Source: Mycobacterium sp. 050128
Lineage (GTDB): Bacteria; Actinomycetota; Actinomycetes; Mycobacteriales; Mycobacteriaceae
Assembly: GCF_036409155.1 (NCBI RefSeq)
Contig: NZ_JAZGLW010000006.1
Coordinates: 124,001 to 188,000, forward strand
Direction of reading: 5' to 3'
DNA length: 64,000 nt
A model generated the notes under the pieces. That model made no database searches and had not been told where the DNA came from. It saw nothing but the letters and a program-made list of their open reading frames with translations. A program made the position numbers and the translations under genes. How positions within the stretch are numbered: position 1 is the first letter of the stretch; the number at the start of each line of letters is the position of its first letter. This document shows, one piece after another, positions 15,252 through 34,365 of the stretch.

Positions 15252-15267
15252 CTATACAGTCGTACAG
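15252..15267. promoter_or_regulatory. TetR-type operator candidate, site 1 (CTRTAC-N4-GTAYAG)
   Basis: CTATACAGTCGTACAG, a 6-4-6 inverted repeat 40 bases before the GTG start of the acyl-CoA dehydrogenase. It is one of seven copies between 15.25 and 29.82 kb. Confidence 0.75.
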
Positions 15268-15307
15268 TGTCTTGTCACCCCCGGGCTGACCACCATGAGG
15301 AGGTGCC

Positions 15308-16486
15308 GTGCAGCTGCACTTCGATGCCGATGTCGAAGCCTTTCGGGCTGAATTTGTGGACTTCTTGACCGAGCACCTGCCTAACGAAGCCGAAGCCGCG
15401 GGGCAGCGCCCTCGCTCTAGTGCCGACGTTCCGCCGTGGGCCCGTCGGTGGCAACGCCTCCTATTCGACAACGGGTGGCTGCAGCCCGGTTATCCGCCTG
15501 CCTTTGGCGGTCGGAATGCGACGGTTGTCGAGCAGTACGTGTACTTCCAGGAGTTGTCAAGAAGGCGCATCTATCAAACATTCAACCCGCAGGGTGTCGG
15601 GATCATCGCCGCATCGCTGATCCAGCACGGCACCACCGATCAGCATGCACGCTGGGCGGTGCCCATTTTGCGGGCCGAGATCGTTGCCGCCCTGGGGATG
15701 AGCGAACCCGGAGCTGGTTCGGATCTCGCGTCGCTGCGTACGCGAGCGGTGCGCGAAGGGGACCATTTCGTGGTCAACGGGCAGAAGGTGTGGACGTCGG
15801 GAGCACACGACGCAGACGTTCTGTTCACCTTGGTCCGCACCGACGCTTCCGCGCCCAAGCACAAGGGGATCAGCGTCCTGTTGATTCCGACTGACACGCC
15901 GGGGGTGACGCGACGTCCGTTCGCCTCGGCGTGTGGGCTCGACGATGTTGACTTCAACGAGGTGTTCTTCTCCGACGCACGGGTGCCCGCCGACAATCTT
16001 GTGGGCAACTTGAACGAGGGCTGGACGGTCGCCAATTCCTCACTCGGTCACGAACGGACCTTGTTGTGGCTCAGCTACGCCGATCGGCTGCAGGAGTTTC
16101 TCGATGACTGGACACCGAGCAGCGCCGTCGACCGTGACGCCTACGCAACTCTCGCCATGGACACGTGGTCGCTACTCCTTCTCGGATCCGCAGAGCTGGC
16201 GCGCGATGCCCGCGGGGCTGCCGACCCCGCGTCGATGTCGGTTCTCAAACTGCTTGGCTCGGAGGCTATTCAAACAGCGGCACATGCGGCGCTCACGACC
16301 GCTGGCGTCGAGGGGCTGCGTCATTCGGGCCAAACCAGTCCGTTCTCGCCTTATCATCTGGAGGCCTACACCAGCAACTGGTTCGACCGGTACCTGCGCA
16401 GCTTTGGTGCCACCATCGCTGGCGGTACCTCCGAGATTCAGCGCAACATCATCGCCCAGCGCGTCCTCGGATTGCCGCGCGGATAG
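15308..16486 (+). CDS. Acyl-CoA dehydrogenase family protein
   Basis: A 392-residue flavoprotein of the acyl-CoA dehydrogenase family. The N-terminal helical domain is followed by the FAD/substrate motif ALGMSEPGAGSDLAS, then the beta domain with VNGQKVWTSGAHDAD. The C-terminal helical domain ends with the FAD-contacting AGGTSEIQRNIIAQRVLGLPRG. GTG at 15308 is chosen because ATGAGGAGGTG lies just upstream. No catalytic glutamate is obvious at the usual place, so the chain position oxidised is unclear. It is led by operator site 1 and would insert an alpha-beta double bond in a CoA-linked intermediate. Confidence 0.93.
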   Translation: MQLHFDADVEAFRAEFVDFLTEHLPNEAEAAGQRPRSSADVPPWARRWQRLLFDNGWLQPGYPPAFGGRNATVVEQYVYFQELSRRRIYQTFNPQGVGIIAASLIQHGTTDQHARWAVPILRAEIVAALGMSEPGAGSDLASLRTRAVREGDHFVVNGQKVWTSGAHDADVLFTLVRTDASAPKHKGISVLLIPTDTPGVTRRPFASACGLDDVDFNEVFFSDARVPADNLVGNLNEGWTVANSSLGHERTLLWLSYADRLQEFLDDWTPSSAVDRDAYATLAMDTWSLLLLGSAELARDARGAADPASMSVLKLLGSEAIQTAAHAALTTAGVEGLRHSGQTSPFSPYHLEAYTSNWFDRYLRSFGATIAGGTSEIQRNIIAQRVLGLPRG

Positions 16487-16552
16487 ATGCAATTGCTCCA
16501 GTGACCGGGTGTGCGAATGTGTTTGGTGCTTTTTGAGTTCGGCCACTGGCGC

Positions 16553-17368
16553 TTAGCCGAACTGTGTGATCCCACCGTCGACGACGAGTGACTGCGCGGT
16601 GATGTAGGCGGACTCCGCGCTCAGCATGAAGACTGTTGCGTAAGCGATGTCCCACGCACTGGCCTGGCGGCCGAGCGGCCAACGGATCTTCGTCCTCCCG
16701 GTTACAGTGCTATCGCCGACGCGGCCGAGCGGGGTGTCGACTGGACCGGGAATGACGTAGTTCGCCCGGATGCGCCGCTGTGCTCCTTCGAGGGCCACAT
16801 GACGAGTGAGTCCGAACAGGGCCGCCTTACTGGAGTCGTAGGCGGGAAATCGGGTGCCTGCCTTCAGTCCGGCGGCCGAGCCGATGAACACGAATGCCCC
16901 GTCGTCGTCGAGCAGGGGCATCGCGGCCCGGGCTATCAGGAAGTGCGACCGCACGTTGACTGCGAAGATGTCGTCCCACAGTTCGGGTGTTGTGCCCTCT
17001 AGTCCTTTGCCTTCTCCGTACCCGACGTTGGCAACCACGCCGTCAATGCCGGCCAGCTTCTCGTTTGCTTCCTCGACGAGTCGCTTGCACGCGCTGGCAT
17101 CGCGAACATCTGCGACGACAGTCACTGCCGGGGAATTGCCCTCCTGCTCAATGAGATCCGCGGTGTGAGCCGCGGCATCCGCGTCGACGTCGACACAGGC
17201 GACGCGTGCGCCTTCCCGGGCGCATAGCACGGCGATTGCGCGACCATTGCCGATGGTGACCTCAGGGTCGGGCGATGGCCGCGTTCCCGCGCCGACCACG
17301 ATGATGCGCCGGCCCTGGAGGCGCCCACGCCCAGCAGCAGTGCCAGCTGATTCGGGAGCAAGGGTCAT
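16553..17368 (-). CDS. SDR-family oxidoreductase with unusual glycine-motif insertion
   Basis: A 271-residue short-chain dehydrogenase. Catalytic Ser, Tyr and Lys are visible in GSAAGLKAG and AYDSSKAALFG; the C-terminal substrate loop and VVDGGITQFG end are typical. The nucleotide-binding turn is odd: VGAGTRPSPDPEVTIGNGRA has about seven extra residues inside the TGxxxGxG motif. ATG 17368 is preferred over the longer frame, because the upstream 43 codons overlap operator site 2 and look non-coding. It is divergent from the gene at 17413. It probably oxidises a hydroxyl in the regulon's pathway. Confidence 0.88.
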   Translation of the reverse strand: MTLAPESAGTAAGRGRLQGRRIIVVGAGTRPSPDPEVTIGNGRAIAVLCAREGARVACVDVDADAAAHTADLIEQEGNSPAVTVVADVRDASACKRLVEEANEKLAGIDGVVANVGYGEGKGLEGTTPELWDDIFAVNVRSHFLIARAAMPLLDDDGAFVFIGSAAGLKAGTRFPAYDSSKAALFGLTRHVALEGAQRRIRANYVIPGPVDTPLGRVGDSTVTGRTKIRWPLGRQASAWDIAYATVFMLSAESAYITAQSLVVDGGITQFG

Positions 17369-17389
17369 AGGCCGAACGTAGCACCGATG

Positions 17390-17405
17390 CTGTACATCTG
17401 TACAG
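17390..17405. promoter_or_regulatory. TetR-type operator candidate, site 2
   Basis: CTGTACATCTGTACAG has the same 6-4-6 geometry and perfect arms. It lies between divergent starts, 21 bases before the SDR ATG (17368) and 7 bases before ATG 17413. The plus-strand transcript is therefore probably leaderless or starts within the site. Confidence 0.72.
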
Positions 17406-17412
17406 TCGTTAT

Positions 17413-18042
17413 ATGACTGTGGATGCTCGCACTGGCGACGGCTCCCGCCTGGCGCCCCTCTCGAACGATCAGTGGGGGGCTGAACATGTGGACGCATTGC
17501 GCGATGCCTTCCCGGACAAGGCCATTGCCGCGTTCCAGCAGCCGGGTCTTACACCCAACGTGCTGGCCACGATGCTGCACCACCCTGCGCTGGCTGGTCC
17601 GTTCAATCGGTTCGGCAACGTGCTGTTGCAACAACCCGCTATCGGCCACCGCGCTCGTGAATTGATGCTGTTGCGGGTCGCGTGGCGTACCCGCGCCCAG
17701 TACGAGTGGGTGCATCACGTCCGGCTTGCCGAACGCTACGGCCTGACACCAGGCGATATCGCCGCGATCGCGTCAGGTACCTCCGAATCGTGGACACCTC
17801 TGGAACGCGACCTGGTCGCGGCAGCCGACGAACTTCTGGACCACTACCGCATCGAGGCGGATACCTGGAGCCGTCTTGCCGAAGTGCTCGATGAGCGCCA
17901 ACTCGTCGAATTGCCTTTCATTGTCGGCACCTATACGTGCCTGGCCATGGCATTCAACAGCTGGGGTCTGCAAGTCGAGGACGGCGTCGACACGAGCGGC
18001 GTGCCGCCACTGCCAACTTCCCCCTTCATGCCGTCGCCTTGA
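17413..18042 (+). CDS. Carboxymuconolactone-decarboxylase-family (AhpD-like) protein
   Basis: A 209-residue all-helical CMD-family protein. The core motif region is ELMLLRVAWRTRAQYEWVHH, followed by helices with VRLAERYGLTPGDIAAI, as in the gamma-carboxymuconolactone decarboxylase fold. The redox CxxC of AhpD is absent, so a peroxidase-reductase role is unlikely. The start sits 7 bases after operator site 2 with no room for a ribosome site, consistent with a leaderless message. The family includes decarboxylases and uncharacterised catabolic proteins. The function here is unknown but tied to the regulon by its promoter. Confidence 0.82.
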   Translation: MTVDARTGDGSRLAPLSNDQWGAEHVDALRDAFPDKAIAAFQQPGLTPNVLATMLHHPALAGPFNRFGNVLLQQPAIGHRARELMLLRVAWRTRAQYEWVHHVRLAERYGLTPGDIAAIASGTSESWTPLERDLVAAADELLDHYRIEADTWSRLAEVLDERQLVELPFIVGTYTCLAMAFNSWGLQVEDGVDTSGVPPLPTSPFMPSP

Positions 18043-18153
18043 AAGCACGGGAAAAAGGGCGGCAGGTGAGATTCGACTACTTCATCGACGGAGCTGGATG
18101 GGGCCGAAAGCGTACTGGCCAAACTGCTTTCGGACGATCCAAAGCTGACGGAG

Positions 18154-18966
18154 CTATTTGGCGGCGACGCCGGCGCCCACCGGCAGCGTTGCTCCTGTGA
18201 TGTAGCGCGCCGTGTGACTGATCAGAAACAACACGGCGTTAGTGACGTCGCTGTGTTCGACGTCGGGCACCGTCAATGGATTGCCCGCCGTCGGGCTCGG
18301 GTCGACGATGCGCGTCATGCGCTCGTCGAAGATCACGGGTGTGGTGGCGTCGCCGGTGGGATCCACCGAATTTACCCGGATGTTGTGCTCGGCATAGGCG
18401 TAGGAAGCAGACCGCATCAGCCCGACCACCCCGTTTTTAGATGCCGCGTACGCAAAAGCGGCGGCGCTCCCGTCGCCGCCACGGCCGACCAGGCCCTGCA
18501 CCGAGCTGATCAGAACCATCGTTCCGCCGTTGCCCCCGCGGATCATTGACGGTGCCGTCGCGGCGATGGTGTGCCACACGCCGAGGAGATTGGTGTCGAC
18601 GACAGCGTGGAACACTTCCTCGTCGAGCGGATCGGTCAGACCCATTCCGACAACGCCGGCGTTGGCCACCACGACGTCGAGCTCTCCGAATTCGTCAATG
18701 CCCGAATTGATCCCGGCCTGCAACGCGGCCAGGTCGCGGACGTCGGCGACCACGGCCTTGATCCGCCCGCCGGCCTCGCGGACCAATCGGGCGGTCTCGT
18801 CGAGGTCTTCGGAAGTGGCCAGCGGGTAGGGGATTGCGTCGATGTCGGCACACCTGTCGACGGCAATGACATCGATACCCTCGGCGGCGAGAGCAACGGC
18901 ATGACTGCGGCCCTGCCCACGGGCGGCGCCGGTGACGACCGCGACACGGTTCTTCGTCGCGCTCAT
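18154..18966 (-). CDS. Mycofactocin-type SDR oxidoreductase
   Basis: A 270-residue SDR with TGAARGQGRSHAVALA. The extra DRCADIDAIPYPLATSEDL segment after the second strand, followed by DETARLV, marks the mycofactocin-coupled SDR subfamily, whose members hold NAD tightly and pass electrons to mycofactocin. Ser, Tyr and Lys are in LISSVQGLVG and AYAASKNGVVGLM. It starts 1 base after the P450 stop on the same strand, so both belong to one operon under operator site 3. A P450 hydroxylation followed by this alcohol oxidation is the natural reading. Confidence 0.9.
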   Translation of the reverse strand: MSATKNRVAVVTGAARGQGRSHAVALAAEGIDVIAVDRCADIDAIPYPLATSEDLDETARLVREAGGRIKAVVADVRDLAALQAGINSGIDEFGELDVVVANAGVVGMGLTDPLDEEVFHAVVDTNLLGVWHTIAATAPSMIRGGNGGTMVLISSVQGLVGRGGDGSAAAFAYAASKNGVVGLMRSASYAYAEHNIRVNSVDPTGDATTPVIFDERMTRIVDPSPTAGNPLTVPDVEHSDVTNAVLFLISHTARYITGATLPVGAGVAAK

Positions 18967-18967
18967 G

Positions 18968-20155
18968 TCAGGCGATGATCGCCGGCATGCTGTCCCAGCC
19001 GCGCACCGTCGAGGTGCGCGAGCGTCGCGCCCCGGCCATGTCGATGTCCCATTCTGGCCACCGCTTGAGCACCTCTTCGAGGGCCACTCGACCCTCCAGG
19101 CGGGCCAGCGGAGAACCGACGCAGAAGTGCGCCCCGCGGCCGAAGGTGAGGTGTCCGCCCGGCTTGCGGTGGATGTCGAACTTGTCTGGCTCCTCGAAGT
19201 GCCGTTCGTCGCGGTTGGCCGATGCCAGCATCAGTAACAGGGCGCTGCCAGCCGGAACCACCTGGTCTTGGAAGGTGACGTCGTCGGTCGTGACGTAGCG
19301 CGCGACGTGCGGGCCGGGCGGTTCGTAGCGCAGCAGTTCCTCAATGGCCGTCGGGATCAACCCGTGATCCTGGGCCAATTCCTTGCGCTGGTCGGGATGT
19401 TCGGCCAATACCTTGCCCATCCAGCCGAAGAGGCGACCGGTCGTTTCCACACCCGCGCCGGCAACGACGGCCAGGAACACGATGAGTTCCTGCTTGGTCA
19501 GTTTGCGGGTCGTTCCCGTCTCGTCTTCGAATTCGACGTTGAGCAGTTCGGTGATCAGATCATCGGATGGGTTCTTCTCGCGCCACTCGACGTATTCGCC
19601 GAACATCTCACCAGTGAAGTAGCGATCCTTTTTGATTTCCATGGGCTTGCCTGGCTCGTTGCGGAGCACCTGGTTTGCGTGCTCGCGGACCGCGGGCTGT
19701 TCGGCATCGGGAATCCCGGCCAGCATGCCGATGGTGCGCATGGGAAGTTCGGCGCCAAGGTCTTGTACGAAGTCGAATCGACCCCCGCCGACGAGGGGAT
19801 CGAGGCACGCGATGCAGAAGTTTCGGACCTTGTCCTCGATCGCGCGCATCTTCTTCGGGGTGAACGCACGGGACACGATGGCGCGGTGAATGGTGTGAAG
19901 CGGTGGGTCCTCGTTGATGAAGATGCCCGGCGGCATCACGGGATCCGCCATGACCACTTCGAGGATGTCGCCCTTAGCAGAGCTGAGTCGCGCCGTGTCC
20001 TTGAGCGCGGAATCTACGTCGGCGTAGCGGCTCACGCCCCAGAAGTCATGCCGATCGTTGTAGTAGACCGGACATTCATCTCGAAGGCGACGGTAGGTGG
20101 GATAAGGATCGAGGTCGATGTCGAAGTCCCATGGGTCGTAGTACAGATCGCTCAA
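18968..20155 (-). CDS. Cytochrome P450
   Basis: A 395-residue P450. AGVETT is at about 234-239, the ExxR in EELLR at 272-276, and the haem loop FGRGAHFCVG has the cysteine at 345. I chose TTG at 20155 because GAGGAG lies at the right distance upstream and the longer frame would run through operator site 3. The protein then starts with the family-like SDLYYDPWDFDIDLDPYPTY. Site 3 is 46 bases upstream. It is the first gene of a two-gene operon with the mycofactocin-type SDR. Electron supply could come from the ferredoxin at 21995 in the same regulon. Confidence 0.93.
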   Translation of the reverse strand: MSDLYYDPWDFDIDLDPYPTYRRLRDECPVYYNDRHDFWGVSRYADVDSALKDTARLSSAKGDILEVVMADPVMPPGIFINEDPPLHTIHRAIVSRAFTPKKMRAIEDKVRNFCIACLDPLVGGGRFDFVQDLGAELPMRTIGMLAGIPDAEQPAVREHANQVLRNEPGKPMEIKKDRYFTGEMFGEYVEWREKNPSDDLITELLNVEFEDETGTTRKLTKQELIVFLAVVAGAGVETTGRLFGWMGKVLAEHPDQRKELAQDHGLIPTAIEELLRYEPPGPHVARYVTTDDVTFQDQVVPAGSALLLMLASANRDERHFEEPDKFDIHRKPGGHLTFGRGAHFCVGSPLARLEGRVALEEVLKRWPEWDIDMAGARRSRTSTVRGWDSMPAIIA

Positions 20156-20201
20156 CGTCGGCTCCTCGGGGCTGGTTTGGCATGCGTGCACCGGGCGTAT
20201 G

Positions 20202-20217
20202 CTATACGACCGTACAG
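20202..20217. promoter_or_regulatory. TetR-type operator candidate, site 3
   Basis: CTATACGACCGTACAG, 46 bases upstream of the TTG start of the P450 at 20155. It is 71 bases from site 4, on the P450 side of the divergent promoter region. Confidence 0.75.
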
Positions 20218-20272
20218 GAGCCGGTCTTCGGCGGGCAACCATGCGATATCGCCACGTGGAACTCGGCATATG

Positions 20273-20288
20273 CTATACGATCGTACAA
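20273..20288. promoter_or_regulatory. TetR-type operator candidate, site 4
   Basis: CTATACGATCGTACAA, 49 bases upstream of the SDR ATG at 20338. The last base of the right arm differs from consensus. With site 3 it gives each of the two divergent promoters its own copy. Confidence 0.72.
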
Positions 20289-20337
20289 CCCAGTTGGTGA
20301 CCATTGAAGTCGGCTGGATACGAACTCGAGGAGTGTA

Positions 20338-21108
20338 ATGAGCAGTCGGTTCTCGCTCGATGGACGCGTTGCGCTCATAACTGGCGGTGGTACGGGCATT
20401 GGCCGAGCCGCGGCTCTGGTGCTCGCCGAACACGGGGCTGACGTTGTGTTGGCCGGCCGCCGTCCCGACCCGCTTGAGTCCACCGCCAAGGAGGTAGCCG
20501 CGTGGGGGCGACGCGCCTTGCCTGTTTCGACGGATGTCACCACCGCCGAGGCTTGTCGTAAGCTGGTCGACGCCACTGTGGCCGAGTTTGGCCGGCTCGA
20601 TGTGCTGGTGAATTGCGCTGGCGGCGCCGAGACCAAGTCGATCCTGAAGTGGCCGGACGACGACTTCGAGAACGTCCTCGCCTTGAACTTCAAGGCCGTG
20701 TGGCATCTTTCGAAGGCGGCTGCGAAGCCGATGATGGATCAGGGCAAGGGCGCGATAGTCAATATATCCTCGGGCGCAAGCCTTCTGGCCATGCCGCAAG
20801 CCGCTCCCTACGGCGCCGCCAAGGCTGCGGTGAACAACCTGACTGGATCCATGGCGGCGGCATGGGCGAAGAAAGGCATTCGCGTGAACGCCATCGCCGT
20901 CGGCGCCGTCCGGGCGGCCACATTGACCGACGACGCGGCGCGCTACGGATTGGATCCCGAGGCTATTGCGCTCAGTAATGGGCTTGGTCGCCTCGGCGAA
21001 CCAGACGAAATCGGCTACGGCGTGCTTTTTTTCGCTTCCGACGCGTCGAGCTTCTGCTCGGGTCAGACCCTCTACATGCACGGCGCGCCCGGACCCGCTG
21101 GCGTCTGA
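20338..21108 (+). CDS. SDR-family oxidoreductase
   Basis: A 256-residue classical SDR. TGGGTGIG (15-22) binds the cofactor and NCAGG stabilises the core. The catalytic triad is Ser145, Tyr158 and Lys162 (NISSGAS, PYGAAK). GAGGAG precedes the ATG at good spacing. The C-terminal end (YMHGAPGPAGV) departs from the usual DGG motif. The gene is first of a plus-strand series under operator site 4. The product is probably a dehydrogenase or reductase acting on a ring or chain hydroxyl/keto group. The exact substrate is unknown. Confidence 0.92.
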   Translation: MSSRFSLDGRVALITGGGTGIGRAAALVLAEHGADVVLAGRRPDPLESTAKEVAAWGRRALPVSTDVTTAEACRKLVDATVAEFGRLDVLVNCAGGAETKSILKWPDDDFENVLALNFKAVWHLSKAAAKPMMDQGKGAIVNISSGASLLAMPQAAPYGAAKAAVNNLTGSMAAAWAKKGIRVNAIAVGAVRAATLTDDAARYGLDPEAIALSNGLGRLGEPDEIGYGVLFFASDASSFCSGQTLYMHGAPGPAGV

Positions 21109-21136
21109 CCGCCTTGTGCGCTGGGTACCACGTACG

Positions 21137-21152
21137 CTATACAGACGTACAG
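21137..21152. promoter_or_regulatory. TetR-type operator candidate, site 5
   Basis: CTATACAGACGTACAG, between two consecutive SDR genes on the same strand. It is 12 bases before ATG 21164 and 45 before GTG 21197, so the second SDR has a separate controlled promoter. Confidence 0.74.
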
Positions 21153-21196
21153 CATGCACCGGGATGGTGACCACAAACCGACGGGATGGTGTGGAT

Positions 21197-21940
21197 GTGA
21201 GCCGAGTAGCGGTGGTGACCGGTGGCGGATCGGGCCTGGGGCAGGCGATCAGCACCAAGCTCGCCGCAGATGGTCACCGGGTGGCCGTCATGGACGTCAA
21301 TGTCGAAGCGGCGGACAAGGTGGCCGCGGAGGTACGGGCAGCCGGCGGCAACGCGCTAGCTGTGGGTGTCGACGTCTCCGATGAAACCGCCGTGGACTCG
21401 GCCTTCGGTACGGTCCGAGGCTCCCTCGGCCCAGTGGCGATCCTCGTGACGAGTGCGGCGATCGCGGGCTTTACACGCTTCGACAAGATCACCCTCACCG
21501 AATGGAACCGGTACCTCGCGGTCAACCTCACGGGCACTTTCTTGTGCGTCAGAGCCGCGTTGTCGGACATGGTCGCCGCCGGGTGGGGCCGCATCGTCAC
21601 CATCTCGTCAGCAGCCGGTCAGAGAGGCGCCCCCGCACAGGGCCACTACGCGGCCACGAAGGGCGGTGTCATCGCAATGACCAAGACACTCGCCCTGGAC
21701 TATGCGGCCAAGGGCATTACGGCGAATACGGTCCCGCCGTTTGTGATCGATTCGCCGATGCTGCGTGAACAGCAGCGCGAAGGAAAGTTACCGCCGGCCG
21801 AGCATCTCGCCAAGGCGATTCCCGCACGCCGGCTGGGGTCTGGTGACGACGTTGCCGCCGTGTGTTCGTTCTTGTGTTCGGAGGCGGCGGGTTACGTCAA
21901 CGGACAGGTCATCGGTGTCAACGGCGGCGCCATCATCTGA
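21197..21940 (+). CDS. SDR-family oxidoreductase
   Basis: A 247-residue classical SDR with TGGGSGLGQAI near the N-terminus, Ser/Tyr/Lys in ISSAAGQRG and HYAATKGG, and the ending IGVNGGAII. GTG 21197 places the VSRVAVVTGG start in the family position. ATG 21164 in the same frame adds eleven residues and is also possible. It resembles 3-oxoacyl-(ACP/CoA) reductase-type SDRs. It has its own operator (site 5) and is followed after 54 bases by the ferredoxin gene. It probably interconverts a hydroxyl and a ketone in the regulon's pathway. Confidence 0.9.
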   Translation: MSRVAVVTGGGSGLGQAISTKLAADGHRVAVMDVNVEAADKVAAEVRAAGGNALAVGVDVSDETAVDSAFGTVRGSLGPVAILVTSAAIAGFTRFDKITLTEWNRYLAVNLTGTFLCVRAALSDMVAAGWGRIVTISSAAGQRGAPAQGHYAATKGGVIAMTKTLALDYAAKGITANTVPPFVIDSPMLREQQREGKLPPAEHLAKAIPARRLGSGDDVAAVCSFLCSEAAGYVNGQVIGVNGGAII

Positions 21941-21994
21941 GGGCCGCGGCGACCGAATGCGCGCACACGACAATGGAGTACGTGGAGGAATGAC

Positions 21995-22234
21995 GTGAGA
22001 GTACGAGTAGACGGCTCGCGCTGCCAAGGACACACGCTGTGCGCGATGATAGCCCCGGACTCCTTCGAACTTGATGACGTCGATGGGCACGCCCACGCCG
22101 CGACCGACGTCGTCGCCGGCGAGCAGCACGACGCGGTCGCAGAGGCCGCGAAGTCGTGCCCCGAACAGGCCATCGAAATCGTCGTGGAGGCGTCGGATCG
22201 CAGCCGTGCGGTGAGAAACGGCGCGGCGCAATGA
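21995..22234 (+). CDS. [3Fe-4S] ferredoxin, P450 partner
   Basis: A 79-residue single-cluster ferredoxin. The cluster cysteines lie in RCQGHTLC and SCPEQAI. Only three of the four usual [4Fe-4S] ligands are present (His replaces the second Cys in CxxHxxC), the signature of the [3Fe-4S] ferredoxins that feed actinobacterial P450s. The GTG start has GAGGAATGAC upstream. Its TGA overlaps the ATG of the P450 gene (ATGA), so the two are translated together and the ferredoxin is almost certainly that P450's electron donor. The ferredoxin reductase is not in the window. Confidence 0.93.
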   Translation: MRVRVDGSRCQGHTLCAMIAPDSFELDDVDGHAHAATDVVAGEQHDAVAEAAKSCPEQAIEIVVEASDRSRAVRNGAAQ

Positions 22235-23598
22235 CCCCCGACCACGACGATTCCCGCACCCCGTCGTCGGCCGCGCGCTATCACTTCGACCGGCATGCCC
22301 CTGACTACCGGATCAACTTCCTCGACATCACCCATGAGATGCATCGCAGATGCCCGGTCGCATGGACGGACACCTACGACGGGCACTGGGTGGCGGCGGG
22401 CAGCGACGAGGTCTTCGAGCTCGCTCGTTGTCCGCATGTGTCCAACGACCACGACGTCAACCATGAGCGGCGCGGGTACAAGGGTATCTCCATCCCGCTC
22501 ATGGTGGAGGCCGAAAACTTCCGCGGCGGAATGCTCGAAATGGACGATCCCGAACACCGCGACTACCGTACGGCGCTCAACCCCTATCTCTCGCCGGCCG
22601 CGGTCAAGCGCTGGGGACCGTTCGTCGACGAGATCGTGCGCGCCTGCATCGACGACCACATCGATTCGGGCAGCATCGATTTCGTCGACGACCTTGCCAA
22701 CGTCGTTCCTGCGGTGCTCACGCTCGCCATGCTCGGGGTGCCGCTCGACAAGTGGACCATGTACAACGAGCCGGCCCACGCATCGATCTATACGCCGCCC
22801 GATTCACCCGATGCGGCGCGCGTCCGCGAGCAATACACGGCGATGGGCATGGACCTATTCGCCAACCTGGTGGAGATCCGGGAACAGCCTCGCCCTGGGA
22901 TCATTGACGCGTTGGCCAAGTTGCGCCTCGACGGTCAGGCGCCGCCCGACATCGAGTTGATCGGGATGTTGAACCTATTGATCGGTGGCGGATTCGACAC
23001 CACCACCGCCCTGACCGCACACGCGTTGGAATGGCTTTCCCAGCATCCCGACGAACGTGCACGGCTCAGCCGTGACCGCGAAACCCTGCTGAACCCGGCC
23101 ACCGAGGAGTTCCTGCGCTATTTCACTCCCGCGCCGGGCGATGGTCGCACCGTCGCCCAGGACATCGAACTCGGCGGCATCGCGTTCAAGGAAGGTGACC
23201 GATTGTGGCTGTCCTGGGCGATGGCCAACCGCGACCCGGCCTTATTCAACGAACCCGATGCCGTCATTCTTGATCGGAAGGGCAACCGCCACTTCAGCTT
23301 TGGCCTGGGCGTGCACCGATGCATAGGTTCCAACGTCGCACGGACCGTATTCAAGTCGATGCTGACCGCGGTGCTCGACCGGCTGCCGGACTATCAGTGT
23401 GAGGCTGAGGGGACCGTGCACTACGACAGCATCGGCGTAATCCAAGGAATGAAGCACCTTCCGGCCACGTTCACCCCCGGCCGCCGCCGCGGCCCCGGGG
23501 TTTCCGAGACAATCCCGCGGTTGCAACGTGCCTGTGACGAACAGGGTTTGGCCCGTCCCATCACCGAACTCAAGGAGTCCGCGAAGATCGCGGAGTGA
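22231..23598 (+). CDS. Cytochrome P450
   Basis: A 455-residue P450, longer than its neighbours. The I-helix motif is GGFDTTT (253-259), with Asp in place of the usual acidic Glu. ExxR is in EEFLR (292-296) and the haem cysteine is Cys364 in FGLGVHRCIG. The extra length is a C-terminal tail of about 45 residues after the usual P450 end (GRRRGPGVSETIPRLQ onward). The start overlaps the ferredoxin stop. It is part of a plus-strand run of six coupled genes (ferredoxin, P450, SDR, sulfotransferase-like, SDR, unknown). It would hydroxylate the pathway substrate. Confidence 0.93.
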   Translation: MTPDHDDSRTPSSAARYHFDRHAPDYRINFLDITHEMHRRCPVAWTDTYDGHWVAAGSDEVFELARCPHVSNDHDVNHERRGYKGISIPLMVEAENFRGGMLEMDDPEHRDYRTALNPYLSPAAVKRWGPFVDEIVRACIDDHIDSGSIDFVDDLANVVPAVLTLAMLGVPLDKWTMYNEPAHASIYTPPDSPDAARVREQYTAMGMDLFANLVEIREQPRPGIIDALAKLRLDGQAPPDIELIGMLNLLIGGGFDTTTALTAHALEWLSQHPDERARLSRDRETLLNPATEEFLRYFTPAPGDGRTVAQDIELGGIAFKEGDRLWLSWAMANRDPALFNEPDAVILDRKGNRHFSFGLGVHRCIGSNVARTVFKSMLTAVLDRLPDYQCEAEGTVHYDSIGVIQGMKHLPATFTPGRRRGPGVSETIPRLQRACDEQGLARPITELKESAKIAE

Positions 23599-23639
23599 AT
23601 CGAACCCGAAGCCGACCGCGCACTCATAAGGAGAGATTG

Positions 23640-24503
23640 ATGTCCGAACACAGCACCGTGGCCTTGGTGACGGGAGCCAGCCGCGGAGCGGGCGCAGGCA
23701 TCGCCAAGGCGCTGGGGAGCCACGGCTGCACGGTGTACATCACCGGCCGGACCCGCAGCGGCGATGGATCCTCGCTGAATGGCACCATCGACGAGACCGC
23801 CGCGCAGGTGACCGCGGCCGGTGGTCGAGGCGTCGCCGTACGGGTCGACCACGGCAACGACGTCGACGTCAAGGAACTCTTCGACCGGATCCGCGACGAG
23901 CAAGGCCGCCTGGACATCCTGGTGAATAACGCCGCCATCATCCGCGACGAGATGATGGGCCGAACGAAATTCTGGGAGGAACCACTCAACGTCGTAGACA
24001 CCCTGGACGTCGGAGTGCGCAGCAGCTACGTGGCCACCGTTTACGCTGCGCCACTGATGATTCCGCAACGCAAAGGGCTCGTCGCCTTCTCCTCGTCGTC
24101 GGGCTCGGTCCACTACGCATTCGGACCCGCCTACGGCGTGCCGAAGGCCGCCACCGACAAGATGGCCGCCGACATGGCTTTCGACTTCCGCGAGTTCGGC
24201 ATCGCCGCAGTGTCGATTTGGATGGGCTCGCTGCTGACCGATCGAGTCAGGAAAATCATCGCGAGCAAGCCAGAGAAGTTCGGGCACATCCTCGACACCG
24301 CCGAAACACCGGAACTGACCGGCCATGTCATTTGGGCGCTGTACAACGACCCTGAGTTGATGACGCTAAGCGGTCAGACCCTGATCGGCGCAGAGCTGGC
24401 GGTCAAGTACGGGATTCAAGACGAGGGCGGTCGTCAGCCACCGTCCTATCGCGACATGTTCGACGTCCACCCGTGCCAGCAATTCCCGCACATCATGCGA
24501 TGA
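23640..24503 (+). CDS. SDR-family oxidoreductase, DHRS1-like
   Basis: A 287-residue SDR with TGASRGAGAGIAKAL, and a long loop after strand two containing DGSSLNGTIDETA that is typical of DHRS1-like proteins. Catalytic residues are in SSSSGSVHY and AYGVPKAA. AAGGAGAG precedes the ATG. The stop overlaps the next gene's start (ATGA). It sits between the P450 and the sulfotransferase-like gene in a translationally coupled operon. The substrate is unknown. Confidence 0.88.
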   Translation: MSEHSTVALVTGASRGAGAGIAKALGSHGCTVYITGRTRSGDGSSLNGTIDETAAQVTAAGGRGVAVRVDHGNDVDVKELFDRIRDEQGRLDILVNNAAIIRDEMMGRTKFWEEPLNVVDTLDVGVRSSYVATVYAAPLMIPQRKGLVAFSSSSGSVHYAFGPAYGVPKAATDKMAADMAFDFREFGIAAVSIWMGSLLTDRVRKIIASKPEKFGHILDTAETPELTGHVIWALYNDPELMTLSGQTLIGAELAVKYGIQDEGGRQPPSYRDMFDVHPCQQFPHIMR

Positions 24504-25711
24504 CCACGGAAAGGCTTGCCGTGCAACCCCATCGATCAGGCGCACACACGCTGAGGAGTGAGCGCCTGATCGATGCGGCAAGAAATGCCACCGGCTTGGA
24601 CAACTTCGGGGAGGATGGTTGGCGCGAAGGGCTCGACCGGCTGGTAGATGCCCTCGTGACGGAGGCGGCGCTCAACGACGTCGGTGTGGCCGCGGCGTGC
24701 AAGGAGCTGAAGTACCTGCTCATCGCCCGACTAGGCGTAGTGGCGTACCGCAATGCTCATCCCAATATCGCGGCGGCCGACGTCGTCCCGCCGGTGGTGA
24801 TCATCGGTCAAGCCCGGACGGGCACTACCATCTTGCACGACCTGCTGGCCCAAGACCCGGCCGCGCGCGTACCCCTCACTTGGGAGGTAGAGCGGCCGTG
24901 CCCGCCGCCGGAGACGGCCAGTTACACGACTGATCCGCGGATCGAGGCCGTCGACGGGCGGATCGCCGCGATGGGCACCGTAATGCCCGACCTCTTCGGG
25001 ATGCATCCGATGGGTGCGCAGTTAGGGCAGGAATGTGTGTGCATCACCGCATCCGACTTCCGCAGCATCTTGTTCGCCACCGAATACCGAATTCCCTCCT
25101 ACGCGCGATGGCTCTTCGATGAAGCCGACCACGAGTCCGTTTACGGATGGCACCGAACATTCCTGCAGCACTTGCAATCTCGCCACCCCACTGGTCGGTG
25201 GGTTCTCAAGTCGCCCGGTCACATTTGGACACTGGGTGAAATGACCGCCGCCTACCCCGATGCTCTACTCGTGCAGACGCACCGTGACCCGCTGCGGATC
25301 ATCGCTTCGGTAACGTCGATGTACACCACGTTGCGTGGCGTCACCAGCGATGTAGTCAATCCCCAGCAGATCGCATCGGAATGGGGCGAGTACATCCTTG
25401 ACGGACTCGACCGGTCGGTGGCAGCCCGTGCGAACGGAACTGTGAGCTCCGCCAACGTGATTGACGTCAACTTTCGAGATTTCGCGGATGATCAGGTGGG
25501 AACGGTCGAGAAGGTCTACGACCGCTTCGGACTTGAGTTCACCGATGCCGTTCGCGCGCGGGTCGCCGACTTCTTGACCAATCATCGCCAGGACAAGCAC
25601 GGCGGCCACCGCTATACGTTCGCGTCTACAGGCCTGGATTCGGGGGAATGGCGTGAACGGGCCCGCCGATACCAGGAATACTTCGACGTGCCATCGGAGA
25701 GGCTGGACTGA
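24500..25711 (+). CDS. Sulfotransferase-family protein
   Basis: A 403-residue protein with the PAPS-binding P-loop IIGQARTGTTILHDLL (about 101-116) and the 3'-phosphate segment LLVQTHRDPLRIIASVTSMY further on, as in the actinobacterial sulfotransferase_3 group. ATG 24500 overlaps the preceding stop. Such proteins are frequent in mycobacterial catabolic and lipid loci, but few have a demonstrated substrate. In this operon a role in sulfating or binding a hydroxylated intermediate is only an inference. A transfer reaction inside a degradative operon is unusual. Confidence 0.85.
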   Translation: MTTERLAVQPHRSGAHTLRSERLIDAARNATGLDNFGEDGWREGLDRLVDALVTEAALNDVGVAAACKELKYLLIARLGVVAYRNAHPNIAAADVVPPVVIIGQARTGTTILHDLLAQDPAARVPLTWEVERPCPPPETASYTTDPRIEAVDGRIAAMGTVMPDLFGMHPMGAQLGQECVCITASDFRSILFATEYRIPSYARWLFDEADHESVYGWHRTFLQHLQSRHPTGRWVLKSPGHIWTLGEMTAAYPDALLVQTHRDPLRIIASVTSMYTTLRGVTSDVVNPQQIASEWGEYILDGLDRSVAARANGTVSSANVIDVNFRDFADDQVGTVEKVYDRFGLEFTDAVRARVADFLTNHRQDKHGGHRYTFASTGLDSGEWRERARRYQEYFDVPSERLD

Positions 25712-25713
25712 TC

Positions 25714-26481
25714 ATGTCCAATGAGACGCTCTGCAACCGTGTCCTTTTCATCGCCGGGGCTGGACCGCAGATTGGTGCTGCGACAGCCCACATCGCGGCA
25801 CGGGAGGGTGCGTGTGTCGCGCTGGCCGCGCGTCGCCTAGAGGTTGCCGAGGAGATCGCAGATTCGGTAAGGGCGGCCGACGGCAAGGCCATCGCGGTTC
25901 GATGCGACGTCACCTCCGACGAGGACGTGGAGAGCGCACTCGACGCCACCAGGTCCGAGTTCGGCGTCATCGACCGAGTCTTCTTCAATGCCGCGTACTA
26001 CGACAACCGACAGGCATCCATCGACATCGACGATGACGCATGGGACACCTCTATGGACGTCAACCTGAACGCGGCCGTTCGGATCGCGCGGCGCACGGTG
26101 CCGGCGATGATCGAGCACGGCGGCGGGTCCTTCGTGTTCACGTCGTCGGCGGCGTCCGTCGTGGCCGGCGATACACGTTTCGGTTACCAGGTGTCGAAGG
26201 CGGGTTTGAACGCCGTCACCCGATTTGTTGCGGGAAAATATGGAAGGCAGGGCATTCGGGCCAACGCCGTGCTGCCGTTCGTCGTCGAGGGTGCTGTCGG
26301 TGCAGCTGCGGCGTCACTGAACTGCATCGGCCGATCACCGACCGCCGAAGAAATCGGTGAAGCCGTGGTCTTCCTCCTGTCGGACCGTGCAGCCGCAATC
26401 ACTGGTCAACTGATCCACCTCGACGGCGGTCTCTTCGTCCGAGCCCCCTGGCCGACGCCGGCATCCAAGCCACGCGCATGA
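25714..26481 (+). CDS. SDR-family oxidoreductase
   Basis: A 255-residue SDR. The cofactor turn is AGAGPQIGAATA, a variant of TGxxxGIG. NAAYY replaces the common NNAG. Ser, Tyr and Lys are in TSSAASVVAG and GYQVSKAG. It starts 2 bases after the previous stop and overlaps the next gene by ATGA, so it is the fifth member of the coupled run from 21995. The divergent nucleotide motif leaves cofactor preference open. Confidence 0.87.
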   Translation: MSNETLCNRVLFIAGAGPQIGAATAHIAAREGACVALAARRLEVAEEIADSVRAADGKAIAVRCDVTSDEDVESALDATRSEFGVIDRVFFNAAYYDNRQASIDIDDDAWDTSMDVNLNAAVRIARRTVPAMIEHGGGSFVFTSSAASVVAGDTRFGYQVSKAGLNAVTRFVAGKYGRQGIRANAVLPFVVEGAVGAAAASLNCIGRSPTAEEIGEAVVFLLSDRAAAITGQLIHLDGGLFVRAPWPTPASKPRA

Positions 26482-27524
26482 CAGCCGACCTCAGCGGCGG
26501 TCTTGATGCAGCCCGAGAGTACTTCCTGGTCAATCCCCCGGATCCGGAGATGCGGGACTCGGCAAGCTTCTGGGCCTACGACGACGCGGGCATTATCGGT
26601 TTTCCTCGCATCGGTGTTGAGGCGGTCGGCTCGAAATGGACCGAACCTCAATACCAAGTGAACGTGGCCTTCGCCGACGGTCGGGTATTGCGCATCCGGG
26701 AGACCGGTCCACGGCACTCGCCGATCGGGCTCGAAGGCAACGCGTCGGTGCTCGGTGCCGGGCCGCTCGAATTCCGTTGTGTGCGACCATTCGAGCTGTC
26801 GACGGCATCGTTCGACGGGGTTGCCCTGCAGACCACAACCGACGCCCTGCTGCGCGGCGAACGCGGGGGCGATCCCACCAGCGTCGAGTTTCACATCGAG
26901 GCGACGATGGCCGCGCCCCCGTGGGTTAACGGATCGCTGTCGCAAGAGGCGGCGCACCACATGAACTCGTCCGTCGAAGGCGTGTTCATGGGAGGTGCTC
27001 GCTTCGAGCAACTGTTCCGCGCGGTTGGCACCCTGCGCGTCGGAAACGAGGAACACCGGTTCGCCGGAAGCGGTACTCGTGTGCGCCGTCAGGGAGCGCG
27101 TGACATGGCCGGCTTCTGGGGACATTGCCAGCAATCGGCAACATTCCCGAGCGGCCGAGGGTTCGGTTACATCGCCTACCGGCCACGCCCCGATGGCACC
27201 GGTTCGTACAACGAGGGATACGTCTTCACTGGCGCCGGCGGGCTGGTTCCGGCCCGGGTGGCGCACGCTCCATGGTTATCGACCCCGCCGCGCATTGGGG
27301 ACGACGTCTCACTAGTACTCGAATCCGCCCTGGGCACTATGGAAGTGGACGGAATCACCACCGTGTCGGTGTTCAACCTCGGAGATCCGCGATCCGACAA
27401 CGCCCTGGCCGCGTTGCACCAAGCGGGCGTCCGCTATCGGTGGGACGGAGAAACCGCCTCCGGGGCGTTAGAACGATCGACCCCGCCACGCGAAATCGCC
27501 GGTCTAGCCGAAGTCGCTCACTGA
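26478..27524 (+). CDS. Conserved protein of unknown function in the regulon
   Basis: A 348-residue protein, last of the six coupled genes. It has no signal peptide or membrane segment. It begins with DPEMRDSASFWAYDDAGI and has a mainly beta-type sequence with motifs such as DMAGFWGHCQQS and GRGFGYIAYRP. The pattern recalls lipocalin-like or AttH/hydroxysteroid-type domains found beside steroid and terpene catabolic genes. I cannot name a reaction. Its place after the P450, SDRs and sulfotransferase-like gene makes a binding or isomerising role for a hydrophobic intermediate possible. It is a good candidate for undescribed chemistry. Confidence 0.75.
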   Translation: MTADLSGGLDAAREYFLVNPPDPEMRDSASFWAYDDAGIIGFPRIGVEAVGSKWTEPQYQVNVAFADGRVLRIRETGPRHSPIGLEGNASVLGAGPLEFRCVRPFELSTASFDGVALQTTTDALLRGERGGDPTSVEFHIEATMAAPPWVNGSLSQEAAHHMNSSVEGVFMGGARFEQLFRAVGTLRVGNEEHRFAGSGTRVRRQGARDMAGFWGHCQQSATFPSGRGFGYIAYRPRPDGTGSYNEGYVFTGAGGLVPARVAHAPWLSTPPRIGDDVSLVLESALGTMEVDGITTVSVFNLGDPRSDNALAALHQAGVRYRWDGETASGALERSTPPREIAGLAEVAH

Positions 27525-27549
27525 TTCGCACCAGAGCATCCAAGAGGTG

Positions 27550-27565
27550 CTATACCATCGTACAG
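27550..27565. promoter_or_regulatory. TetR-type operator candidate, site 6
   Basis: CTATACCATCGTACAG, 28 bases before the ATG of the flavin monooxygenase at 27594, giving that gene its own controlled promoter. Confidence 0.75.
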
Positions 27566-27593
27566 CAACTCCGAATTATCGATAAGGGGCGCC

Positions 27594-28970
27594 ATGTCCA
27601 AGCGGTTGATCTTCACCCTGCTCTTGATGGACTCGATCGGTCACAACTTCCACGGCATCTGGCGACACCCGCGCGCCCGCAACCGCGAATTCAAAGGATT
27701 CGATCTCTGGGTCGACCTCGCCAAGAAGGCAGAACAGGCCAAGGTCGACGCCTTCTTCTTCACCGATCTTGTCGGTGTACAAGGTGAATACAACGGTTCG
27801 CGCGACGTGATCTTCCAGATGGCCATGAACGTACCCATCGGGGACTGCACCATGGTGATTCCCGCAATGGCAAACCAGACAACCGATCTCGGCTTCCTCT
27901 ACACCAGTTCGGTCATCCAGCACCATCCATTCGTCTTCGCGCGCGCTGTCTCCACGCTCGACAATTTGAGCAACGGAAGGATCGGCTGGAACATCGTCAC
28001 ATCGGCCAACGAGAAGGCCTTCCGCAACCTCGGATTGCCCACCAGCCCATCCCATGAGGAGCGCTACGCCTGGGCCGAGGAGTACGTCGATGTTACCTAC
28101 AAGCTGTGGGAAGGATCCTGGGACCTCGACGCCGTCGTCAACGATTCCGCCGCCGGCGTGTACGCCGACCCGACGAAGATTCACGACATCAACCACGAGG
28201 GCAAGCGTTACAGCGTCGAGGGATTCAACCTCATGGAGCCCTCGCCGCAACGCACTCCCGTGTTGGCACAGGCGGGTGGCTCCCCAGCCGGTTTAGATTT
28301 CGCTAGCGCCCACGCCGAGCTCATGTTCCTGTCCGCGATGACACTGGAAACCATTGCCCAGCAGATCAATACCGTCCGCGGCCTCGCCCGTGAACGTGGT
28401 CGCCGCGACGGCGACATTCTTTTCCTTCAGGGCATGATGTTCATCATCGGGTCGACCGACGAAGAGGCCTACCGCAAGTGGGGAGAGCTCGAGGAGTTCC
28501 GCAGCCAGGAAGCCCAGACGGCGTACTTCTCGAGCCTGAGCGGCATGGACCTAGGCCGCTACGACCCCTCGACGGCGCTGGAGGACATCATCGACGAGAT
28601 CCCAGGCATTCGCGGGGCATTCCTCGCCATCATCAACGCCTGGCCGGAAGGTATGCAGCCGACCGTCAAGGACTTCCTATCTTCACTGTCGTTGCCACAG
28701 ATGGTCGTCGGGTCCCCCGAGACGATCGCGAAGCGGCTCACCGAGTATCAGGGCGCCGGCGTCGATGGCGTCCAGGTGATGAATGCGCTGCTGCCGGAGA
28801 GCTACGAAGACTTCTTCGAACACCTCGTCCCGGTGCTTCAAGACAAGGGTCTGATGCAACGGGAATACCAACCAGGCACCTTGCGTGAGAAGTTGTTTGG
28901 AAAGATGGGCGCCGACATTAGCGAGCGCCATCCCGCCTACGGGTACCGCGGGATGTTCTGCGACCGATGA
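27594..28970 (+). CDS. FMN-dependent monooxygenase, NtaA/SnaA/DszA-type (luciferase-like)
   Basis: A 458-residue TIM-barrel flavin monooxygenase of the bacterial-luciferase superfamily. Diagnostic parts are HNFHGIWRHP near the start, FARAVSTLDNLSNGRIGWNI, and TPVLAQAGGSPAGLDFAS. These match the two-component NtaA/DszA group, which uses reduced FMN supplied by a separate reductase. AAGGGG precedes the ATG. No intact flavin reductase is in the region; the one at 7233 is broken. The enzyme may carry out a Baeyer-Villiger or other oxygen insertion in the regulon's pathway. Confidence 0.9.
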   Translation: MSKRLIFTLLLMDSIGHNFHGIWRHPRARNREFKGFDLWVDLAKKAEQAKVDAFFFTDLVGVQGEYNGSRDVIFQMAMNVPIGDCTMVIPAMANQTTDLGFLYTSSVIQHHPFVFARAVSTLDNLSNGRIGWNIVTSANEKAFRNLGLPTSPSHEERYAWAEEYVDVTYKLWEGSWDLDAVVNDSAAGVYADPTKIHDINHEGKRYSVEGFNLMEPSPQRTPVLAQAGGSPAGLDFASAHAELMFLSAMTLETIAQQINTVRGLARERGRRDGDILFLQGMMFIIGSTDEEAYRKWGELEEFRSQEAQTAYFSSLSGMDLGRYDPSTALEDIIDEIPGIRGAFLAIINAWPEGMQPTVKDFLSSLSLPQMVVGSPETIAKRLTEYQGAGVDGVQVMNALLPESYEDFFEHLVPVLQDKGLMQREYQPGTLREKLFGKMGADISERHPAYGYRGMFCDR

Positions 28971-29107
28971 CCTCGCCACCTGACCCAGTAGCCGTTCTGG
29001 TTTTGCTCGGCAACCCTGCGCCGGGCCTCGGTCAATAGGCGCATCATCGCCGAACTAGCATCAGCGGCCAGACTCGCATCACCGCCGTGGATTACGGCGC
29101 GTTGCCA

Positions 29108-29755
29108 TCAGCGCTTGCTTGGTGTGCGTCGTCTAGTCGACGACGTTTTGCGCTTCTTCATTGCAGGGGCTGGCCCCAACGTGTCGAGGTAGCGCTCGAA
29201 GGCCTCAGTCACCTCGGCGTGAGCGGACTTCACGCCAATGCCCTCCTCGAGATTAAGGAACTTCGGCAGGCCCGACATCAACAATTGCAACGCTGGAAGG
29301 GATAGATCGCCAAGGAACCGCGCATCATTGCCGAACTTCGCAATGAGCGCGTCCAACTGCACCTTACGAACGCTTTCGGTGACTGCGGCGATCTCGGTTC
29401 GAATGGACTTGCGGTGGTTGCCAAGCGCCATGAATTCCGTCATTAGTGCGCCCGTTGCCTCGTCCCAGCTGTACTCCCACACCGCCCGAAGAGGGTCGTC
29501 GGCGCGACGCTCCAAGGTTTCTGCGAGAAAGGCGAGATTGCGTTCCGAGTAGCGTCGGATCGCGGCTACGAAAATGTCGTCGAGACTGGGAAAGTAGTAC
29601 TGCACGAGGCTGGGTGTGACGCCGGCCCTGGTGGCCAGGACACGGTAAGTGACGCTCGCATACCCTTCTTCGAGCATCAACGTCTCGACACAGTCGAGAA
29701 GGACGTCCCGCGTCTTGGACGTTTCAGCGCCCACACGCCGCGACGATGCTGCCAT
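29108..29755 (-). CDS. TetR-family regulator, candidate master of the 15-30 kb regulon
   Basis: A 215-residue TetR protein. The N-terminal helix-turn-helix reads GYASVTYRVLATRAGVTPSL followed by VQYYFPSLDDI. The rest is the helical ligand domain, including EFMALGNHRKSIRTE. A basic C-terminal tail (KKRKTSSTRRR) may add DNA affinity. ATG 29755 is preferred over GTG 29761. Operator site 7 lies 47 bases upstream, between this gene and the divergent gene at 29898, the classic autoregulated arrangement. Six further copies of the site in the preceding 15 kb suggest a local repressor released by a pathway intermediate. The domain resembles the regulator at 52677. Confidence 0.9.
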   Translation of the reverse strand: MAASSRRVGAETSKTRDVLLDCVETLMLEEGYASVTYRVLATRAGVTPSLVQYYFPSLDDIFVAAIRRYSERNLAFLAETLERRADDPLRAVWEYSWDEATGALMTEFMALGNHRKSIRTEIAAVTESVRKVQLDALIAKFGNDARFLGDLSLPALQLLMSGLPKFLNLEEGIGVKSAHAEVTEAFERYLDTLGPAPAMKKRKTSSTRRRTPSKR

Positions 29756-29802
29756 GGCCACCTCACTTATTCGGATTCTTGTATTGTGACACTGGCCCGA
29801 CG

Positions 29803-29818
29803 CTGTACAGTCGTATAG
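29803..29818. promoter_or_regulatory. TetR-type operator candidate, site 7
   Basis: CTGTACAGTCGTATAG, 47 bases from the TetR start and 79 bases from the divergent gene at 29898. It is the same site in the opposite orientation to sites 1 and 3-6. Confidence 0.77.
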
Positions 29819-33503: not shown

Positions 33504-33513
33504 CCCTGCACTA

Positions 33514-34338: not shown

Positions 34339-34365
34339 TGCACTAAAATGATGGTATCGTGCACT
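34339..34365. promoter_or_regulatory. TGCACT direct repeat upstream of the Cys/Met enzyme
   Basis: TGCACT occurs at 34339-34344 and again at 34360-34365, exactly 21 bases (two helical turns) apart in an AT-rich promoter region. The outer bases also form a TGCAC-N15-GTGCA inverted pair. It lies 40 bases before ATG 34405 and could bind the XRE-cupin regulator encoded at 35724. Confidence 0.4.

Follow-up and report, generated by a model that had tools for sequence, protein, structure and literature searches.

In mycobacteria, the TetR-family sterol regulators KstR and KstR2 act through a palindromic operator that is repeated before catabolic genes for cytochromes P450, short-chain dehydrogenases/reductases (SDRs), and acyl-CoA dehydrogenases. 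The locus described here lies in a 64,000-nucleotide stretch of the genome of Mycobacterium sp. 050128 (hereafter the window) and resembles these systems in its arrangement, as a gene for a TetR-family regulator is accompanied by the inverted repeat CTRTAC-N4-GTAYAG before P450, SDR, and acyl-CoA dehydrogenase genes. However, the operator differs from the known KstR and KstR2 sites, the gene set is also different, and the assumption that the regulator is KstR or a close relative was rejected, as the best KstR chain in the PDB aligns with residues 7–71 only, at an E-value of 0.007. MftR, another mycobacterial TetR regulator, is reported to control mycofactocin biosynthesis (PMC8728441); one SDR of the locus is of the mycofactocin-coupled type, but no mycofactocin biosynthesis gene is among the annotated ones here, where no dedicated search for them was made. 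Annotation with Pfam and NCBIfam profiles agrees with the gene list of a previous sequence-only reading and gives an acyl-CoA dehydrogenase (ACAD), six SDRs (SDR1–SDR6), two P450s (P450a and P450b), a ferredoxin (Fdx), a carboxymuconolactone decarboxylase-family (CMD) protein, a sulfotransferase, a flavin-dependent, luciferase-like monooxygenase (LLM), an NTF2-like protein (SnoaL), the TetR, and a 348-residue protein without Pfam match (Table 1). Our analyses show by computation that the operator is linked to this TetR, and that its placement and the gene content are conserved. We therefore regard it as very likely that the operator, the TetR, and the gene set constitute one regulon. None of the papers listed from the open-access literature, which was covered by titles and abstract openings, with most subscription papers outside this scope, deals with the regulator, the operator, or the pair formed by the sulfotransferase and the 348-residue protein, and the regulon is apparently undescribed. 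Regulons in which a TetR repressor controls catabolic genes are familiar, and the sulfotransferase/lyase-fold pair is the most novel part of the present one.

The operator and its link to the TetR gene

The sequence-only reading had proposed seven copies of the repeat, each within about 80 bases of a gene start, and no others in the window. All seven were located at the proposed positions, but only six of them are exact, as the copy at 20273 (CTATACGATCGTACAA) deviates by one mismatch. The distances to the gene starts are all in the range of 7–79 bp, four of the sites are found within three divergent gene pairs (SDR1/CMD, P450a/SDR3 with two sites, and TetR/SnoaL), and the total for the window remains at seven even if two mismatches are permitted. 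Exact matches did not occur in any of 100 dinucleotide shuffles of the window, compared with six in the real sequence. With up to two mismatches, the shuffles contained 1.78 sites on average, and one of the 100 reached seven, and therefore the evidence for an operator lies in the exact matches. A scan of the whole genome, which had been suggested together with the motif, placed all six exact matches of the 6.73 Mb (52 contigs) inside the cluster on contig C6. There are 11 sites with one mismatch in the genome, the copy at 20273 and 10 outside the cluster, and as the reversed motif pattern, which served as control in the same sequence, also had 10 matches, the outside sites represent background. 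The motif is thus not common elsewhere, so that the refuting outcome which had been named for it did not occur, and on the basis of the same counts, an extension of the regulon to other parts of the genome was rejected.

The assignment of the operator to the divergent TetR gene, which had been named as the likely regulator, is supported by the distribution of both elements in the genus. We scanned 198 genomes for the exact motif and for the TetR protein (E ≤ 1e-45) and found an orthologue in 40 of them, the best matches outside the own genome being 63–82% identical. Two or more exact sites are present in 35 of these 40 genomes and in none of the 158 genomes without the TetR (Fisher p = 7e-34). 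A single exact site does occur in 19 of the 158 TetR-free genomes, and since just as many of them (19/158) contain a match to the control pattern, these lone sites are regarded as background. The remaining five TetR genomes (G008, G059, G116, G125, and G195), with one exact site or none, have sites with at most one mismatch within 10 kb of the TetR gene. Furthermore, in stretches of 2.7 to 3.6 kb that were fetched from 31 of the 40 TetR genomes, a site was found near the TetR at all 31 orthologue loci (own locus included), whereas the 26 loci around other, 36–43% identical TetR matches have none.

A search with an alignment of 18 TetR orthologues in one genome per species (84,980 species) resulted in 65 loci, mostly from Mycobacterium and Mycolicibacterium, but also from Rhodococcus, Nocardia, Williamsia, Blastococcus, and Frankia/Parafrankia, and, at an E-value of 9e-5, from Amycolatopsis. 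Of the named relatives, M. colombiense NS-7390 is the closest, with a 95% identical TetR and 81–96% identity for the genes that were compared. In the 1.247 Mb of these loci, 120 exact and 123 one-mismatch sites were counted, as compared with 0 and 2 matches to the reversed control, and 62 of the 65 loci contain at least one site with no more than one mismatch. The TetR is present at all 65 loci by construction, which is no evidence, and the tests with 65 loci and with 198 genomes are not independent, as they overlap in many species. From 256 distinct sites, which were taken from 64 of the 65 loci with L046 (L168 omitted) and from the window, a consensus of about TGCTRTACRNNYGTAYAGCA was derived. 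This site of 20 bp adds to the motif two bases at either end and one inside. As the sites had been picked by at most one mismatch, unbiased columns are limited to the flanks and the center; columns outside the 20 bp contain no more than 0.10 bit each. Adjacent sites are frequently 17 to 26 bp apart, and two dimers could therefore sit side by side. An overlap of the site with the −10 box via the CTATAC half had no general support, as the two orientations were found 42 and 36 times (p = 0.57); the orientation was, however, biased for TetR (17:3) and SDR4 (12:1).

Operator placement in relatives

Placement was analyzed by asking whether the 250 bp before a gene contain a site with at most one mismatch, with orthologues of at least 60% identity being termed core. 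For core orthologues, such a site was found upstream of SnoaL in 20 of 20 cases, NTF2 in 9 of 9, SDR4 in 36 of 40, P450a in 43 of 51, LLM in 19 of 24, TetR in 42 of 55 (at a median distance of 48 bp), and SDR3 in 28 of 41. A nitroreductase gene that was seen in relatives but not in the cluster described here has a site in 13 of 17 cases. Sites are rare before P450b (1/20), Fdx (0/8), SDR6 (0/4), and SDR5 (5/20), which is expected because these genes lie inside transcription units. Less similar SDR3 homologues from the same loci have no site in any of 14 cases. The class of weak identity is not a clean negative control, as it contains SnoaL paralogues, 23 of 25 of which have a site. For these counts and for the comparison of gene order below, overlapping tblastn matches were reduced to the best one; the counts also exclude matches with unaligned first 20 residues and those starting within 260 bp of the end of a locus. 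Fifteen query proteins came from L046, which is also among the loci, and its M_ rows therefore count themselves once.

Gene order, which was compared in the same 64 loci plus L046, varies between the species, and gene content is modular, while the sites mostly stay at the same orthologues. LLM was seen only in loci of Mycobacterium and Mycolicibacterium, and those loci of Nocardia and Williamsia that contain several regulon genes have SnoaL/NTF2, P450a, SDR3, SDR4, or P450b. A large version of the regulon is encoded on a plasmid of M. madagascariense (L046, NZ_AP022611.1; 228 kb, typed as mobilizable), with a wax-ester synthase, a GMC protein, a CMD protein, an SDR, and a nitroreductase as extra members, several of which have their own operator. 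As this plasmid is of a mobilizable type, the regulon can move. In M. lepraemurium (L140), the P450b match is split into three pieces and a further gene is fragmented as well, which may reflect a decay of the regulon in a host-adapted species.

The encoded enzymes and the reading of the locus

The enzyme set makes a catabolic role of the cluster likely. P450a and P450b share 29% identity over 321 aligned positions. The nearest solved chain of P450a is an entry named CYP125MRCA. P450b has the P450cin structures as nearest solved relatives, followed by a CYP125-type chain, with P450-terp lower in the list. This likeness to P450cin and monoterpene P450s is restricted by the fact that the matches are distant and the CYP125-type chain scores nearly as high, and therefore the substrate of P450b cannot be read from them. 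The cluster motif of the ferredoxin is CQGHTLC, and single-cluster ferredoxins with such non-cysteine residues have been described beside P450s of specialised metabolism and of mycobacteria (PMC6237146). As the start of P450b overlaps the ferredoxin stop, these two proteins are probably partners. Closest to LLM among solved structures are 6lr1, then 3b9n (an alkane monooxygenase) and 6ak1, its nearest solved relatives thus including alkane and dimethyl-sulfide monooxygenases, and closest to ACAD are Tcur3483, then 4x28. The PDB relatives of SnoaL are weak (Rv3472, E 1.3e-6). In the clusters of relatives, aldehyde dehydrogenase (ALDH), GMC, and nitroreductase genes are present.

We infer that the TetR protein binds the operator and represses the genes. 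A dimeric TetR would occupy the 20-bp palindrome at seven places and thereby hold down its own promoter and the adjacent oxidative genes until a compound of the pathway binds to it. The pathway would dismantle a compact hydrophobic, probably alicyclic compound of terpenoid- or steroid-like nature. Hydroxylations would be carried out by P450a and P450b, the latter with its own ferredoxin, the SDRs, including the mycofactocin-coupled one, would oxidise alcohols, the flavin mononucleotide (FMN)-dependent monooxygenase would oxygenate again, possibly with cleavage of a ring or chain, and ACAD would feed beta-oxidation. In this organism, an accessory triad of sulfotransferase, SDR6, and lyase-fold protein may remove a hindered hydroxyl group in the form of its sulfate ester.

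Several observations weigh against this reading. Three of the 65 loci (L150, L164, and L168) have no site with at most one mismatch, and among the five TetR genomes that do not reach two exact sites, G195 is the only one in which the genome-wide count of sites with at most one mismatch is above the control (8 versus 6); it is thus the position near the TetR that supports the sites of these five genomes. The ACAD gene has an operator here, yet none of five relatives with a visible 5′ end has one, and sites are unevenly found before GMC (4/9), ALDH (1/6), and SDR2 (1/6). On the side of the enzymes, a CoA ligase, a thiolase, and an enoyl-CoA hydratase were not identified in the regulated set, so that the later steps would come from elsewhere or the pathway would be partial. 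The alicyclic, terpenoid- or steroid-like substrate is weakly suggested by distant P450 and ACAD matches.

Could the palindromes be non-regulatory, as mobile or structural repeats or terminators that are upstream of genes by accident? Short palindromic repeats are common in bacteria, but the flanks beyond the 20 bp are nearly devoid of information, the sites precede the same set of orthologues in species after species, and the rest of the genome contains no more of them than of the control pattern, which makes this explanation extremely improbable. It is somewhat less far-fetched, albeit still very unlikely, that another regulator binds the palindrome and that the TetR gene is merely a co-controlled neighbor. 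In its favor, the locus of R. globerulus (L150), with a 65% identical TetR, lacks a site with at most one mismatch. A foreign regulator would, however, have to account for the nearly complete presence/absence link in the 198 genomes and for a site that remains near the TetR gene through rearrangements, and SLVQYYFP, a stretch of the helix-turn-helix, is the same in all 18 aligned TetR orthologues.

With the TetR as regulator, the cluster could also serve to make or tailor a specialised metabolite or a modified lipid. Ferredoxins of the type found here are described near P450s of specialised metabolism (PMC6237146), a sulfate introduced by the sulfotransferase could be permanent, and the wax-ester synthase gene on the plasmid of M. 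madagascariense has an operator 44 bp upstream. However, there is no polyketide, peptide, or terpene synthase among the annotated cluster genes, and ACAD, the mycofactocin-coupled SDR, and the ALDH, GMC, and nitroreductase genes of relatives better fit a breakdown. The modular gene content is also as in catabolic clusters. We thus consider product formation unlikely, and clearly less so than the two explanations that dispense with the TetR, and prefer the breakdown of a compound under the control of the TetR.

The sulfotransferase/lyase-fold pair and the neighboring genes

The nearest solved structures of the sulfotransferase are 2zq5 and 2z6v, and its translation contains a GQARTGTT stretch at what we take to be the place of the binding loop for 3′-phosphoadenosine-5′-phosphosulfate (PAPS). 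Its partner, the 348-residue protein, could not be assigned to a known Pfam family, as it has no match of its own; among 36 homologues, 21 have a match to DUF7064 at E ≤ 1, the best at 8.5e-08. Residues R175, E177, R201, R203, R204, R208, and H216 do not vary between the 36 homologues in their alignment. Its structure model (pLDDT 91.2) has a solved 25-phosphosteroid lyase as top Foldseek match (E 8.0e-12), and AttH and pericyclases tie in Z, so that a 25-phosphosteroid-lyase/AttH/pericyclase fold is predicted. In an hmmsearch with the 36 homologues against PDB sequences, no 25-phosphosteroid lyase chain was among the matches listed at E ≤ 1.

Of 46 loci of the 348-residue family, 44 have a sulfotransferase next to the family member or one gene away, always upstream and on the same strand. 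These loci comprise 20 of 42 matches and 26 new ones of 39 matches, taken in order of score, with members that are 45–100% identical over the aligned part, and the sulfotransferase is found in 20 of 20 loci of the first and 24 of 26 of the second set, the exceptions being L208 and L212. It is directly upstream in 39 loci (gap of −1 to 229 bp between the aligned stretches), and in five loci with gaps of 770 to 901 bp, one gene that matches SDR6 lies in between. The own genome contains 16 Sulfotransfer_3 matches in 6.73 Mb, and we estimate the chance of an accidental adjacency to be about 1%. A second such pair exists in this genome (C1, 1355221–1357468), with a sulfotransferase that is 34% identical to the one in the window. 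The region of this second pair (L189, C1:1355221–1358299) is operator-free and SDR-flanked, and a LysR regulator is found in the region and a sulfate permease about 11 kb away. Pairs of the window type (sulfotransferase at least 72% and 348-residue protein at least 77% identical) occur together in the same three of the 198 genomes (G000, G055, and G067), and the pair is therefore accessory and not part of the regulon core.

A system for comparison is the 25-hydroxysteroid kinase/25-phosphosteroid lyase of Sterolibacterium denitrificans (PMC8449060, PMC11061730; PDB 9fzn, 9g4c, 9g2i). We tentatively suggest, while considering it less likely than not, that the pair could be a two-enzyme dehydration module, in which a hindered, perhaps tertiary, hydroxyl would be sulfated with PAPS and the sulfate then eliminated to give an alkene. 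Such a module would parallel, with sulfate in place of phosphate, the kinase/lyase pair of anaerobic sterol degraders. A phosphotransferase of the APH type was rejected as partner: there are 31 matches in the own genome and none on contig C6, other kinase families not having been searched.

Table 1. Operator copies and genes of the proposed regulon. Distances are from the operator to the gene start.
Feature	Position	Strand	Distance (bp)	Remarks
Operator copy 1, CTATACAGTCGTACAG	15252–15267			exact; upstream of ACAD
ACAD, acyl-CoA dehydrogenase	15308–16486	+	40	Pfam PF02770/PF00441/PF02771
SDR1	16553–17368	−	21	Pfam PF13561
Operator copy 2, CTGTACATCTGTACAG	17390–17405			exact; between divergent SDR1 and CMD
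CMD, carboxymuconolactone decarboxylase-family protein	17413–18042	+	7	Pfam PF02627
SDR2, mycofactocin-coupled SDR	18154–18966	−		TIGR03971, 308.8 bits (passes cut-off of 300)
P450a, cytochrome P450	18968–20155	−	46	Pfam PF00067; TTG start at 20155
Operator copy 3, CTATACGACCGTACAG	20202–20217			exact; between P450a and SDR3
Operator copy 4, CTATACGATCGTACAA	20273–20288			one mismatch; between P450a and SDR3
SDR3	20338–21108	+	49	Pfam PF00106
Operator copy 5, CTATACAGACGTACAG	21137–21152			exact; upstream of the run from SDR4 through Fdx, P450b, SDR5, sulfotransferase, and SDR6 to the lyase-like gene
SDR4	21197–21940	+	44	Pfam PF13561
Fdx, single-cluster ferredoxin	21995–22234	+		Pfam PF13459; CXXHXXC motif
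P450b, cytochrome P450	22231–23598	+		Pfam PF00067; ATGA overlap with ferredoxin stop
SDR5	23595–24503	+		Pfam PF00106
Sulfotransferase, Sulfotransfer_3	24473–25711	+		PF13469, E 2.8e-39, 136.1 bits (cut-off 27)
SDR6	25714–26481	+		Pfam PF13561
348-residue protein, DUF7064-related	26478–27524	+		predicted 25-phosphosteroid lyase/AttH/pericyclase fold; no own Pfam match
Operator copy 6, CTATACCATCGTACAG	27550–27565			exact; upstream of LLM
LLM, NtaA/DmoA-family FMN-dependent (luciferase-like) monooxygenase	27594–28970	+	28	TIGR03860, 461.9 bits (cut-off 279.7)
TetR-family regulator, proposed repressor	29108–29755	−	47	PF00440, E 1e-06, 28.8 bits (cut-off 24)
Operator copy 7, CTGTACAGTCGTATAG	29803–29818			exact; between divergent TetR and SnoaL
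SnoaL, SnoaL_4/NTF2-like protein, core regulon member	29898–30461	+	79	Pfam PF13577

The regulon is surrounded by further genes of interest. A TauE/SafE-type sulfite exporter (32715–33659) and a Cys/Met-metabolism enzyme dependent on pyridoxal phosphate (34348–35589) are encoded nearby, and a connection with the sulfate that the proposed module would set free is only a thought. Between them (33678–34199), an IS21-type IstB ATPase of 173 residues with a partial profile match is probably a remnant beside the cluster. Region 978–12367 looks catabolic, with a thiamine pyrophosphate enzyme, two amidohydrolases, a P450 (4048–5274), a zinc alcohol dehydrogenase, an aldehyde dehydrogenase, and an enolase-superfamily enzyme. 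A second oxidative cluster (43846–54378) has its own TetR genes (43846–44670, minus strand, and 52380–53327, plus strand), together with SDRs, a CMD protein, two aldehyde dehydrogenases, a P450 (51014–52294), and an NAD-binding-2 dehydrogenase; no operator copy was found in it at up to two mismatches. Region 55463–63381 encodes the nickel transporter NicO, the hydrogenase maturation proteins HypD and HypC, and an AIRS-family protein that is perhaps HypE-like.

In summary, the locus connects an oxidative pathway that has not been assigned so far with a regulator, an exact operator sequence, and a list of conserved genes. With the TetR in 40 of 198 genomes, about one in five of the genomes sampled from the genus would have this pathway, related versions occur in Nocardia and Williamsia, and it can be tested through one regulator and one DNA sequence. 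If the proposed function of the sulfotransferase/lyase-fold module is true, such modules would be widespread in actinobacteria, and it may be hypothesized that many bacterial Sulfotransfer_3 genes serve a temporary activation of alcohols rather than the decoration of a product.

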